From Catenulispora sp. EB89 (GTDB lineage: Bacteria > Actinomycetota > Actinomycetes > Streptomycetales > Catenulisporaceae), in contig NZ_JBGCCU010000001.1 in assembly GCF_041261445.1 (NCBI RefSeq), forward strand, positions 124,001 to 188,000: 64,000 nt of DNA, in the 5' to 3' direction. Position 1 is the stretch's first letter. Each line of letters starts with the position of its first letter. The position numbers were made by a program, and so were the translations under genes. The notes beneath the pieces were generated by a model, which worked only from the letters and a program-made list of their open reading frames with translations, had not been told where the DNA came from and did not search any database. This document shows positions 43,092-50,375 of this stretch, piece after piece.

Positions 43092-43142
43092 CGCTGCCTC
43101 CGCATGTGGAACGAGGATCAGTGTCTCATCAGCGCCAACGCT

Positions 43143-43159
43143 ATACCCCATGGGGGTAT
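43143..43159. promoter_or_regulatory. CsoR-type copper operator
   Basis: ATACCCCATGGGGGTAT is a perfect palindrome (ATACCCC / GGGGTAT, 3-nt centre) like known actinobacterial CsoR boxes. It lies 51 bases upstream of copA and 90 bases before the divergent DUF1906 gene. Confidence 0.85.
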
Positions 43160-43249
43160 TCCGCCAGCGGCCGGTCAGCTGATCCGACGATTGGGCCGCC
43201 GGGGTTCCTTCGCGTGAGTGCTGCCGCGACACCGGGTAGGCGGTCCGTC

Positions 43250-44392
43250 ATGCGTCTGCTCCGTCTCACCGCCCTGACCGCAGTCCTGACCCTGAGCTGC
43301 GGCGAAGCCGCCTCGGCCGCGGTCGGGCCGCTGTCCGGGCTCAAAGCGGTGAGCTACGCGGGCACCACGGTCGAGGTCCCGGTGGGCTGGCCGGTGCACG
43401 ACCTGACGGCCGCGCCGCATACCTGTATCCGGTATGACCGGCACGCGGTGTACCTCGGCGACCCGGGGCCGGACCAGAACTGCCCGGCGGGCGCCGTGGG
43501 CCGCACGGAGACCGTGCGCATCGCCTCGGACGGCAAGGTGACCCGGACCTACGGCTACCGCCGGTCCGCGGACGAGGCGGACGTGCCGGACGGGCCGAAC
43601 GCGCCGGACGCCGAGCCGCAGACCGCGCCGCGCAGCCGCTCACGCCTCCCCGAGCGCACCATCAAGGCCGCCGCCACCTACTCCGGCCTGGGCTTCGACA
43701 CCTGCGCGGCGCCGTCCGCCGACGCCATGCAGGCCTGGGCCGGCGCCTCGCCGTACCACGCGGTCGGCATCTACATCGGCGGCATCGACCGCGCCTGCCC
43801 GGACGGCAACCTGACCCCGGGCTGGATCCAGACGGTGGCCCGGCAGGGCTGGAAGTTCTTCCCGATCTACGTCGGCCTGCAGGCGCCCTGCTGGAAGGAC
43901 CCCGGCGGCGGCCACCCGGCGCTGATCGCCCGCAGCCGCCGCTGGACCCAGGGCCAGGAGGCCGCGAACGACGCGGCGAACCGCGCGGCGTACTTCGGCA
44001 TCGCCCCGGGCAGCCCGATCTACTTCGACATGGAGTACTACCCGCGCAACGACGCCGGCTGCACCCAGGACGTCCAGGCGTTCCTGAGCGCCTGGACCGA
44101 CCAGCTGCACGCGCGCGGATTCATCTCAGGGATCTACAGCAGCTCCAAGGGCGCGATCGCGGACATGGCGCTGGTGTACGAGAGCGAGGCGGCCTACCGC
44201 GCGGACGTGGCGTGGTTCGCGCACTGGGACAAGGTCCCGCAGCTGTTCGGCGACCCGACGCTGAGCGACCGGTACTGGCCCGGGCCGCGGCGGATCAAGC
44301 AGTACCAGGGCGGCCACAACGAGACGTACGGCGGAAAGCGGCTGAACATCGACCTGAACATGCTGAACGCGCCGGTGGCGGCGCTGAAGTAG
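43250..44392 (+). CDS. Secreted DUF1906 glycoside-hydrolase-like protein
   Basis: 380 residues from ATG 43250 (GTG 43214 is an in-frame alternative). Signal peptide 1-24. An N-terminal module (25-120) has two Cys and ends in a Pro/Glu/Arg-rich linker. The DUF1906 domain (about 140-375) follows: AATYSGLGFDTCAAPSADAM, HAVGIYIGGIDRACP, SPIYFDMEYYP (acidic strand end), GFISGIYSSSKGAI and KRLNIDLNML. It parallels the 28474 protein but lacks CWB2 repeats, so it may be free or held by the N-terminal module. It ends at a 23-bp terminator. Confidence 0.88.
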   Translation: MRLLRLTALTAVLTLSCGEAASAAVGPLSGLKAVSYAGTTVEVPVGWPVHDLTAAPHTCIRYDRHAVYLGDPGPDQNCPAGAVGRTETVRIASDGKVTRTYGYRRSADEADVPDGPNAPDAEPQTAPRSRSRLPERTIKAAATYSGLGFDTCAAPSADAMQAWAGASPYHAVGIYIGGIDRACPDGNLTPGWIQTVARQGWKFFPIYVGLQAPCWKDPGGGHPALIARSRRWTQGQEAANDAANRAAYFGIAPGSPIYFDMEYYPRNDAGCTQDVQAFLSAWTDQLHARGFISGIYSSSKGAIADMALVYESEAAYRADVAWFAHWDKVPQLFGDPTLSDRYWPGPRRIKQYQGGHNETYGGKRLNIDLNMLNAPVAALK

Positions 44393-44457: not shown

Positions 44458-46170
44458 TCAGCGCTCCGACGGCCGGCCGGGACGGGTCGCCGGACGGCGC
44501 CCCATCGTCCCGCGCTGCGGCGGGTTGGCGGCAGCGGCGGGGCGGCGCGGCTGGACGGGGTTGCGGTCGCTGGAGCGGCCCGGGTCCTGCGGCTCGGCGG
44601 GACGGCCGTAGCCGTCGCGGGGCTGCGCCGGACGGGGACGCGGCTGCTGGCCGGAGGCACCGGGGACGCCGGGCACCGGACGCGGGGCGGCCGACTGCGG
44701 CGGACGTGGCTGGTGCGAGGATCCGCTGGCGCCGTTGGGACCCGGACGGCGCGGCGCGGCCGCACGCGGCTCCCAGTCGGCGCCGCTCTCGCGGGGACGG
44801 CTCGCCGGCGGCAGCGCGGCCTGCGGCGTCGCGCCGCCTCCGTAGCCGCCGCGCCCGGCACCCGGGTTCGAGCTCGAATACGGCTTCGGCGCGGGCGGCG
44901 CCGGCGGCTTGGGCGGCGCCGGACGGCCCATGACCGGAGCCGGCGGCACGGCCGGGAACCCGCCGGTGCCGGTCCCGTCCGCGGGCTCGAACCAGCCGCT
45001 CTCCGCCGCGCTCGCGCCGGTGGTGACCGGGAGGTAGGACGTCTGGGCCGCGTCGTATGAACTGCTCGCAGTGTACGAGCCGGTCGAGTAAGTGCTCTGA
45101 CCCAGCGGATCCGACGCGGACGAGTACGAGGACTGATCCAGGGAGTCGGTCAGCGGATCCGCGAGATTCGCGTACGGGCTGGCCGCGTAGGCGCTCGTGG
45201 AACTGGACGAGCCGTAGCCGCCGGCGGAGCTCGCCGTGGAACCGTACCCGGACGCAGAGCTCGTAGAAGACCCGTACGCGCTCGATCCGGAGCTGTAGCC
45301 GTCCGTGGCAGACGAGCCGTAAGCGCTGGTCGAGCCGTAAGCGCTGGTCGGGCTGTAAGCGCTGGTCGAGCTGTAGGTGCCGCTCGAAGCGGCGCTCGAT
45401 CCCGCGGTCTCGTAGCCGCTCGACGAGCCGTACCCGCTCGTCTGGCTGTAACCGCCGCTCGCGCCGGAGGAGCTGTAGCCGGTCGCAGGGCTCGAACTCG
45501 CCGTGCTTCCGTACAGGGCGTCGCTGCTCGCGCCGTACGTCCCGGAGCTGCTGTACGTCCCGGAGCTGCTGTACGACCCCGAGCTGCCCAGGGCGCTCTG
45601 CGAGCCGAACCCGGAACCGGAGCCGAAGGCGTCGGAGGAGCCCGCCGAGCTCGACGCGGAGGAACCGAGCGCCGGGGTGGACCCGAAGCCCGACCCGGAC
45701 GTCGAGTACCCGCCGGACCCGCTCGCCACGCTGGGCAGCGCCGGAGCCGGGGGCACCGGCGGCCCGCTCTGCGCCACCGCGGCCATCGCCATCGGCAGCA
45801 GGTCCATCGAGGTGGTCCCGAGCCCGTCGGCCGGACACACCCGGACCAGCTCGCCGACCGTCAGCGCCAGCTCGGTGGCCAGGTCCAGGGACCGCGGCTG
45901 CATCGGGTTCTCCCGCATCCACCAGCAGGCGATCTGCACGATCGAGCCGGCGGCGTGCGGACAGGTGCGGATCGCCCCGCGCAGCTGCAGCGGCTGGGGA
46001 CCGGACACGGTGATCCGGAACCAGGTGCCCTCGCGGAAGCCCAGCGCCGGGTGGCCCAGGGAGTCCTGCAACACGACGTGGTACTGGCGCTCGAGCTCAC
46101 GCTGGCCACCGGCCCCGGGGGCGCTCAAGGCCGAGCTGTTCCTCTGCTGCTCGCCGTAGGCGACGCTCAT
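44458..46170 (-). CDS. Large protein with conserved N-domain and Ser/Tyr/Gly-rich low-complexity region
   Basis: 570 residues. Residues 1-130 form an ordered domain I do not recognise (QYHVVLQDSLGHPALGFREG, WFRITVSGPQPLQLRGAIRT, QIACWWMRENPM). Residues 145-400 are almost only Ser, Tyr, Gly, Ala and Thr, with dozens of SAYGSTSAYGSS and SGYGSSSGYE-type units. Residues 405-570 are a Pro/Arg/Gly/Gln-rich basic tail (PRRPGPNGASG, GRPAEPQD). No signal peptide or membrane helix, so presumably cytoplasmic. The layout (SYG-rich then Arg/Gly-rich) resembles eukaryotic FUS-type phase-separating proteins. Function unknown. The codon pattern is coherent, supporting a real gene. Confidence 0.82.
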   Translation of the reverse strand: MSVAYGEQQRNSSALSAPGAGGQRELERQYHVVLQDSLGHPALGFREGTWFRITVSGPQPLQLRGAIRTCPHAAGSIVQIACWWMRENPMQPRSLDLATELALTVGELVRVCPADGLGTTSMDLLPMAMAAVAQSGPPVPPAPALPSVASGSGGYSTSGSGFGSTPALGSSASSSAGSSDAFGSGSGFGSQSALGSSGSYSSSGTYSSSGTYGASSDALYGSTASSSPATGYSSSGASGGYSQTSGYGSSSGYETAGSSAASSGTYSSTSAYSPTSAYGSTSAYGSSATDGYSSGSSAYGSSTSSASGYGSTASSAGGYGSSSSTSAYAASPYANLADPLTDSLDQSSYSSASDPLGQSTYSTGSYTASSSYDAAQTSYLPVTTGASAAESGWFEPADGTGTGGFPAVPPAPVMGRPAPPKPPAPPAPKPYSSSNPGAGRGGYGGGATPQAALPPASRPRESGADWEPRAAAPRRPGPNGASGSSHQPRPPQSAAPRPVPGVPGASGQQPRPRPAQPRDGYGRPAEPQDPGRSSDRNPVQPRRPAAAANPPQRGTMGRRPATRPGRPSER

Positions 46171-46244
46171 CGGCTGCCTGACCGTTCTCCGGACTGCGAG
46201 TCCGGAACCGTGCTCGAAGTCACCATGTATCGCCCGCCTCGGCT

Positions 46245-46454
46245 CTAAAGAGCGGAATTGAGGCGGCCCCCGTTGCCGCTGTGTCCGCAGTGCTGTGTGT
46301 GATCAATGTCCACTGATGTGGTGGGATCGTTGCGCAAACGGTACTCAATACTGGGGCCCAGCGGTAGGGCATCCACTAAGAACAAGCCGTGATTTCTGTG
46401 GCCTGCCCACAACTTCCAGATCCGGCCCGTGCGGGTGCGACCCTCGATTGTCAT
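46245..46454 (-). CDS. Possible small protein with a TTA codon
   Basis: 69-residue frame from ATG 46454 with GAGGGGG about 8 bases upstream (MTIEGRTRTGRIWKLW; KLWAGHRNHGLFLVDALPLG). It fills most of the otherwise empty 314-base gap between the SYG-rich and ECF genes, on the strand opposite the sigma factor. Third-position GC is clearly lower than in neighbours and one TTA codon occurs, rare in such genomes. It could be a foreign or bldA-controlled gene, or chance. Confidence 0.35.
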   Translation of the reverse strand: MTIEGRTRTGRIWKLWAGHRNHGLFLVDALPLGPSIEYRLRNDPTTSVDIDHTQHCGHSGNGGRLNSAL

Positions 46455-46484
46455 CTCGGCGCCCCCTCGGCATAACGTTGTCGC

Positions 46485-47057
46485 GTGACGGCGGACAGAG
46501 ACGAGGAGTTCTCTCGCTATGTCACTGAGCGGTCCGGTGCCCTCCTGCGCGTCGCCTATCTGCTGACCGGGAACCGCGCCGACGCCGAGGACCTGCTGCA
46601 GACCGCGCTGGCCAAGACCTATCTGTCCTGGGCCCGCATCCAGGACAAGGGCGCGCTCGACGGCTACGTGCGGCGCGTCCTGGTGAACACCCAGACCTCC
46701 TGGTGGCGCAAGCGCCGCGTCGAGGAATACGCCACCGACCAGCTGCCCGAGCAGGTCTGGGAGGACACGCGCCCGGCGGAGATCGAACTGCGCTCCACGG
46801 TCTGGAAGTCGCTGGCGCAGTTGCCGCGCCGCCAACGCGCGGTGGTCGTCCTGCGGTATTACGAGGACCTCTCCGAAGCGGAGACCGCCGAGGTAATGGG
46901 GATCTCAGTCGGCACGGTGAAATCAACGGCTTCACGAGCCCTTGCCAAACTCCGGACGGACGGCGCATTGCGCGACGCCCGCGTCGCCATCCCCGCGCCA
47001 CTTCGCCCGCCTGCCCCCGAACCCCTTCCGAAATCCGCCAGGGTCGATGCAGACTGA
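46485..47057 (+). CDS. SigE-type ECF RNA polymerase sigma factor
   Basis: 190 residues from GTG 46485. Region 2: YVTERSGALLRVAYLLTGNR, AEDLLQTALAKTYLSWARI. Region 4: AQLPRRQRAVVVLRYYEDLS and ETAEVMGISVGTVKSTASRA. This is the SigE70/SigE-family ECF type common in actinomycetes. No Shine-Dalgarno is visible; a TAACGT (46472-46477) lies 7 bases before GTG, fitting a leaderless transcript. No anti-sigma gene is adjacent. The C-terminal 30 residues are a Pro-rich tail. Confidence 0.92.
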   Translation: MTADRDEEFSRYVTERSGALLRVAYLLTGNRADAEDLLQTALAKTYLSWARIQDKGALDGYVRRVLVNTQTSWWRKRRVEEYATDQLPEQVWEDTRPAEIELRSTVWKSLAQLPRRQRAVVVLRYYEDLSEAETAEVMGISVGTVKSTASRALAKLRTDGALRDARVAIPAPLRPPAPEPLPKSARVDAD

Positions 47058-47100: not shown

Positions 47101-48726
<1,626 letters not shown>

Positions 48727-49880: not shown

Positions 49881-50375
49881 ATGCGGTCGGGAACCGAGGA
49901 CTTCCGCGAGTTCGTCGCGGCCCGCCAGGGTGCGCTGCGGCGGACCGCGTACCTGCTGTGCGGCGACTGGCACCAGGCCCAGGACCTGACGCAGCAGACG
50001 CTGGCCAAGCTGTTCGTGGCGTGGCCGCGGGTGCGCGCCGTGGAGGCCGTCGACTCCTACGCGCGCCAGGTCCTGGTGCGCACGTACATCGACGAGTCCC
50101 GCAAGCGCCGCAACCACGAACTGGTCACCGCGGAGCTGCCGGACTCCGGCACCGAGGGCCCGGAGATCGAGACCCGGCTGGCGCTGATGGCCGCGCTCAA
50201 GCAGCTCTCGCCGCGCCAGCGTGCCGTCGTGGCACTGCGGTTCTGGGACGATATGAGCGTAGAAGCCACCGCCGAGGCGCTCGGGATGAAGGCCAACACC
50301 GTGAAGTCGGACACCGCACGCGCGTTGGCGAAACTCAAAGGGCTGCTCGACTCGTCTGTACACCAGGCGGTCTGA
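49881..50375 (+). CDS. SigE-type ECF RNA polymerase sigma factor
   Basis: 164 residues from ATG 49881. Region 2: FREFVAARQGALRRTAYLLC, AQDLTQQTLAKLFVAWPRV. Region 4: QLSPRQRAVVALRFWDDMSV and EATAEALGMKANTVKSDTAR. Same subfamily as the 46485 protein but clearly diverged. A membrane protein starts 35 bases downstream with its own strong ribosome site and is the likely partner. No Shine-Dalgarno is obvious before the sigma gene. Confidence 0.92.
   Translation: MRSGTEDFREFVAARQGALRRTAYLLCGDWHQAQDLTQQTLAKLFVAWPRVRAVEAVDSYARQVLVRTYIDESRKRRNHELVTAELPDSGTEGPEIETRLALMAALKQLSPRQRAVVALRFWDDMSVEATAEALGMKANTVKSDTARALAKLKGLLDSSVHQAV

Follow-up and report, generated by a model that had tools for sequence, protein, structure and literature searches.

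A tyrosine-rich tract with evenly spaced, conserved tyrosines on an undescribed actinobacterial domain, and its possible role as a condensate scaffold in Catenulispora

The window (the whole stretch of DNA analysed, 64,000 nucleotides from the soil bacterium Catenulispora sp. EB89) contains on its minus strand a gene for a protein composed of a small folded domain, a long low-complexity tract and a basic tail. The gene, its parts and its neighbours are arranged as follows.

43106-44392, plus strand: Rv2525c-like glycoside-hydrolase-like protein, convergent neighbour
44458-46170, minus strand: the whole gene, 570 amino acids, ATG start, stop codon included; orthologues in 10/10 genomes of the genus Catenulispora
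44461-44994, minus strand: basic tail rich in Pro and Arg (residues 393-570), with 23 Arg and a net charge of +15; from composition
44995-45756, minus strand: low-complexity tract rich in Ser, Gly, Ala, Tyr and Thr (residues ~139-392), with 24 Tyr, 3 Phe and neither Lys nor Arg; from composition and pLDDT < 50
45757-45837, minus strand: linker, residues ~112-138, 100% amino acid identity in three species pairs
45838-46083, minus strand: folded domain of four strands and three helices (residues ~30-111); from an AlphaFold2 block with pLDDT 82-97 and the family alignment
46171-46484, no strand: conserved non-coding region separating the gene from a divergent sigma-factor gene; 10/10 genomes agree at 68% of its positions
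46485-47057, plus strand: ECF-type sigma factor (Sigma70_r2, r4_2); from domain matches
47101-48726, plus strand: member of the AMP-binding acyl-CoA ligase family, a neighbour common to other actinobacterial families

A first-pass annotation of this DNA had described about 250 low-complexity residues followed by a basic Pro/Arg/Gly-rich tail, behind an ordered N-terminal domain. The open reading frame, the tract and the tail are real: the tract (254 residues) consists of 35% Ser, 16% Gly, 14% Ala, 9% Tyr and 9% Thr, whereas the tail (178 residues) is 25% Pro, 15% Ala, 14% Gly and 13% Arg, with 12 RP, 9 PR and one RGG motif. The number of Tyr in the tract (24) is close to that of Arg in the tail (23). 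A confident fold was indeed predicted near the N-terminus, but the ordered span covers residues ~30-111 and not 1-130. Order in the full-length AlphaFold model was confined to this domain; residues 112-165, 167-417 and most of the remainder, and with them most of the tract and tail, had pLDDT values below 50, which may partly stem from the shallowness of the alignment (8 sequences). The repeats thought to fill the tract were present at the DNA level as three 18-bp tandem arrays of 2.5-3.5 copies each, but clean tandem repetition is restricted to part of it. Within a sample of 464 kb out of the 11.9-Mb genome (the window and 20 stretches of 20 kb each, with 395 genes of 100 or more amino acids predicted by a simple gene caller), the gene ranked first of 395 both for Ser + Tyr + Gly content (0.72 in 100 residues; next, 0.50) and for Tyr density (14 per 100 residues; next, 12). 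Sample averages were 6.4% Ser, 2.0% Tyr and 9.3% Gly, so that Tyr is ~4.5-fold enriched in the tract; most other Ser/Gly-rich stretches of the sample were nearly devoid of Tyr, and no second similar Tyr tract was found when the whole genome was searched with this one.

The region upstream of the gene (314 bp) does not look coding and contains three blocks that are invariant in 10/10 Catenulispora genomes (30 bp, 46323-46352; 18 bp, 46299-46316; 15 bp, 46274-46288). It occurs once in the genome and was found in the genus only, in 10 of the 21 genomes searched. No Rfam family matched above threshold (two matches lay below it), and scans for sigma-70 promoters and terminators gave no hit. A small open reading frame on its minus strand (46245-46454) was rejected as a coding sequence, since its DNA is conserved but broken by a stop codon or frameshift in some species, and it was read as non-coding. 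The start codon is closely preceded by a short inverted repeat (TTCCGGA ... TCCGGA; 46173-46210); both of its arms are invariant in 10/10 genomes, and it could possibly form a hairpin in the leader. The gene had been noted to lie beside ECF sigma genes, and an ECF-type sigma gene does adjoin it (49881-50375 clusters with it by BLAST); this sigma gene was divergent from the gene in 9/10 Catenulispora gene calls, and none was seen around the gene in the other genera examined. Being a Catenulispora-only neighbour, it says little about function and was rejected as a functional partner. The acyl-CoA ligase was called beyond the sigma gene in 9/10 Catenulispora genomes, and the same ligase is a neighbour in Actinocrinis, in family f3 and in 4/4 f15 neighbourhoods of 20 kb. 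At loci L033-L037 and L082-L085, the family member has, one to three genes away, a large PAS-domain protein that weakly matches histidine kinases and receiver domains. A protein of the PAS/histidine-kinase type (c9) near the gene in Actinospica, Actinocrinis, f3 and f15 has its relative in the genome studied here on another contig and was therefore rejected as an operon partner.

The homology search with the N-terminal part that the first-pass annotation had envisaged, run with residues 1-137 as query, did find relatives, in 15/99 genomes. These comprised 10/10 Catenulispora, 4/4 other genomes of family f1 and the single f3 genome, against none of the 84 f2 genomes; the sister genera possessing the domain are Actinospica and Actinocrinis. 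A profile search across the class matched 30/394 genomes at E up to 0.01: the genome itself, 21 of f21, five of f15 (among them a Sporichthya MAG), one of f10 and two weak chance matches. A set of 296 genomes from the phylum yielded nothing beyond the genome itself and one weak partial match. The weak matches of the class search (G186 and G272, E 0.003-0.004) and of the phylum search (G645, E 0.0015 over 42 residues) were dropped as chance. The gene was present in 21/22 f21 genomes (20/20 of good quality) and in 5/5 f15 genomes. This distribution is that of a single-copy gene vertically kept in certain actinobacterial families, and it indicates an undescribed protein family that almost every genome examined in several of them possesses. 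What surrounds the domain, in contrast, varies. In Catenulispora, the domain comes first and is followed by the long tract and the basic tail; the tract was found in 10/10 genomes examined, one copy being cut by its contig. Actinospica and Actinocrinis proteins also begin with the domain but continue with a shorter Pro/Gly/Ala tail, and the f3 member (116 residues) lacks a tract. In f21, the domain is last in proteins of roughly 130-170 residues without a Tyr tract, and in f15, it is last after ~150-270 disordered-looking residues. Thus, the domain is the old part, and the Tyr tract is an elaboration, in one genus, of tails that are shorter and differently composed in Actinospica and Actinocrinis; since the f3 and f21 members lack it, the tract is dispensable for the ancestral function.

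The domain itself represents an undescribed family of actinobacteria, and neither family nor fold searches matched it significantly. At E up to 1, the protein had no hit in Pfam, NCBIfam or PHROG, and it matched no PDB sequence; the domain gave no significant Foldseek match (lowest E 1.8 for PDB, 0.37 for BFVD), and its best VIA-align Z score was 4.6. Across 16 family members, Pfam matches were weak only, the best (E 0.0081) occurring in 1/16. No known domain could be assigned from these resources, which leaves room for a family that they do not list.

Aromatic residues within the tract are evenly spaced. When each tract with enough aromatics was compared with 5,000 shuffles of itself, gap variation was 0.27-0.50 in the nine testable Catenulispora tracts (9/9) versus 0.85-0.90 in the shuffles (P at most 0.0006), and gaps of four residues or fewer numbered 0-2 versus 5-10 expected. 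The tenth tract (L030), whose gene is cut by its contig, has too few aromatics and was excluded, as was the f3 member, which has no tract. The tails of Actinospica and Actinocrinis were indistinguishable from shuffles in this respect (4/4; P 0.13-0.64). Part of the regularity stems from the 18-bp tandem duplication; the spacing is also even outside the arrays, and it is so in all Catenulispora tracts tested. Selection was assessed by codon alignment of three separate species pairs, the species being related also beyond each pair. Identity was 97% in the domain of each pair, 82-91% in the tract and 93-97% in the tail, and each pair had 17-26 gapped codons in the tract versus none in the domain. 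Not one of 64 aligned Tyr codon pairs of the tract had changed, versus 159 of 1,011 direction-pooled Ser, Gly, Ala and Thr residues (Fisher P = 4e-5), and an amino acid alignment agreed. The contrast was weaker in a plain nucleotide alignment (Tyr, 5/68; Ser/Gly/Ala/Thr, 178/1,010; P = 0.018), four of the five Tyr changes falling in couples that resemble local shifts; the Ser/Gly/Ala/Thr change rate was 16-18% across alignments. If codon positions 1 and 2 had drifted like fourfold sites, 23-24 Tyr changes would be expected (P for five or fewer, 1e-7). Ten Tyr lay in gapped codons, which indicates that Tyr is gained or lost with inserted units but hardly substituted. The alignments show evenly spaced Tyr kept by selection while the Ser, Gly, Ala and Thr between them drift. 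A sticker-spacer composition had been proposed from the outset and is borne out, with even aromatic spacing and selective Tyr retention as added support; conserved stickers and free spacers are what the codon comparison points to, less strongly with plain nucleotide alignment.

The reading that we favour, with about an even chance of being right, is a cytoplasmic scaffold in which a partner-binding domain is carried on a self-associating Tyr/Arg tract and tail that would form a reversible condensate or dynamic cluster. Weak, multivalent Tyr-Tyr and Tyr-Arg contacts between copies would bring about reversible self-association, the basic tail would make further contacts with an acidic polymer (e.g., RNA, DNA or polyphosphate), and a specific partner would be recruited by the folded domain. 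The Tyr/Arg sticker rule has been worked out mainly on eukaryotic proteins. This protein could be a condensate scaffold that occurs naturally in a bacterium; if it condenses, it offers a natural bacterial case in which that rule can be read from comparative genomics, with natural controls provided by the shorter, differently composed tails of the sister genera and the tract-free relatives in other families.

It is rather doubtful, although conceivable, that the tract is instead a passive spacer, a flexible and protease-tolerant tether between domain and basic tail that grew by 18-bp slippage and in which Tyr regularity is a by-product of repeat expansion. The three tandem arrays and the gapped tract codons, which the domain lacks, would be expected of such a tether, and shorter tails suffice in other genera. 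However, a tether requires neither Tyr at several times the sample average nor its retention, and slippage does not account for even spacing outside the arrays and in each tract tested.

The neighbourhood of family f21 bears on a different possibility. Directly downstream of the family member and on the same strand, a low-molecular-weight tyrosine phosphatase gene was found at 21/21 loci (L050-L070), the aligned parts being ~10-145 bases apart. The family could accordingly act in protein phosphorylation signalling as an adaptor whose disordered part has Ser/Thr/Tyr sites that, when phosphorylated, switch partner binding, the Catenulispora tract multiplying such sites. Yet no such phosphatase matched in the Catenulispora, Actinospica, f3 and f15 neighbourhoods searched, the f21 members have no Tyr tract, and the shared operon may be incidental, which makes this adaptor unlikely. 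Of only slightly better standing is an extended form of the scaffold, namely a dedicated cytoplasmic condensate that uses a Tyr/Arg sticker grammar of bacterial origin, separate from that of the FET proteins, was added to the old undescribed domain and would, given the low-molecular-weight tyrosine phosphatase context, assemble in a phospho-tunable manner.

The disordered part could also serve mainly to present a series of short linear motifs to a single conserved partner, without demixing. Of the 21 family proteins tested, 19 have a DPL motif in their disordered part, be it before or after the domain (it is lacking in L032 and L037), with two to five copies in 7/10 Catenulispora proteins, and tract Leu was without change in the three codon-aligned pairs. 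Such a hub would nonetheless leave the 24 evenly spaced Tyr unexplained; the related proteins are not independent, and those of f21 were outside the DPL test, so that we consider it very unlikely.

Ser/Thr/Gly-rich tracts are common in exported proteins, the Rv2525c-like family encoded next door is secreted, and WxG and YxxxD/E motifs mark proteins secreted by the type VII (WXG100/YxxxD/E) route. Nevertheless, export without a classical signal, for example by type VII secretion, with the tract as an adhesive or spacer outside the cell or at its wall, is the least probable reading, because the absence of a secretion signal noted earlier was confirmed (no hydrophobic N-terminus or transmembrane stretch; the maximal 19-residue Kyte-Doolittle mean, 1.06, lies inside the folded domain), LPxTG, WxG and YxxxD/E motifs do not occur in the 570 residues, and most other Ser/Gly-rich proteins of the sample have nearly no Tyr in such stretches. 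The protein is probably cytoplasmic.

The scaffold reading invites comparison with human FUS and the FET family, whose members combine a Gln-rich SYGQ composition with RGG repeats and an RNA-binding domain. The Catenulispora tract, earlier called FUS-like, shares with them the pattern: it is Tyr-rich and disordered by prediction, has Ser/Gly spacers, little charge and evenly distributed aromatics, and is set apart from an Arg-rich region. The likeness does not extend to composition and accessory parts. No homology exists, Ala and Thr stand where FUS has Gln (2% of the tract), the tail is of the Pro/Arg type with its single RGG, and no RNA-binding domain was found with Pfam and NCBIfam at E up to 1. 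FUS is an analogy and not a relative, and on sequence grounds the protein is not a FET family member. According to Lin et al. (2017; PMC5704491), the FUS IDR contains 27 Tyr (24 in the Catenulispora tract), their number rather than their position sets the phase-separation threshold, and phosphorylation raises that threshold. Among bacteria, a precedent is Rho of Bacteroides thetaiotaomicron, a conserved protein that gained a condensing, lineage-specific disordered region of varying composition (PMC10284900). Rho, however, has an established role in termination and is biased towards E/K and Q/N, whereas the bias here is towards Ser, Gly, Ala, Tyr and Thr and the folded domain matches no known function. 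Prokaryotic low-complexity regions have been surveyed (PMC6821194), and no description of this Catenulispora protein was found in the literature listings searched. Families of bacterial prion-like domains likewise place a low-complexity domain in bacterial proteins and are described as sporadic within their range (Harrison, 2019; PMC6400439), whereas the Gln-poor Catenulispora tract is present in every genome of the genus examined. Sticker-and-spacer proteins are already known; here, one is found on an undescribed domain.
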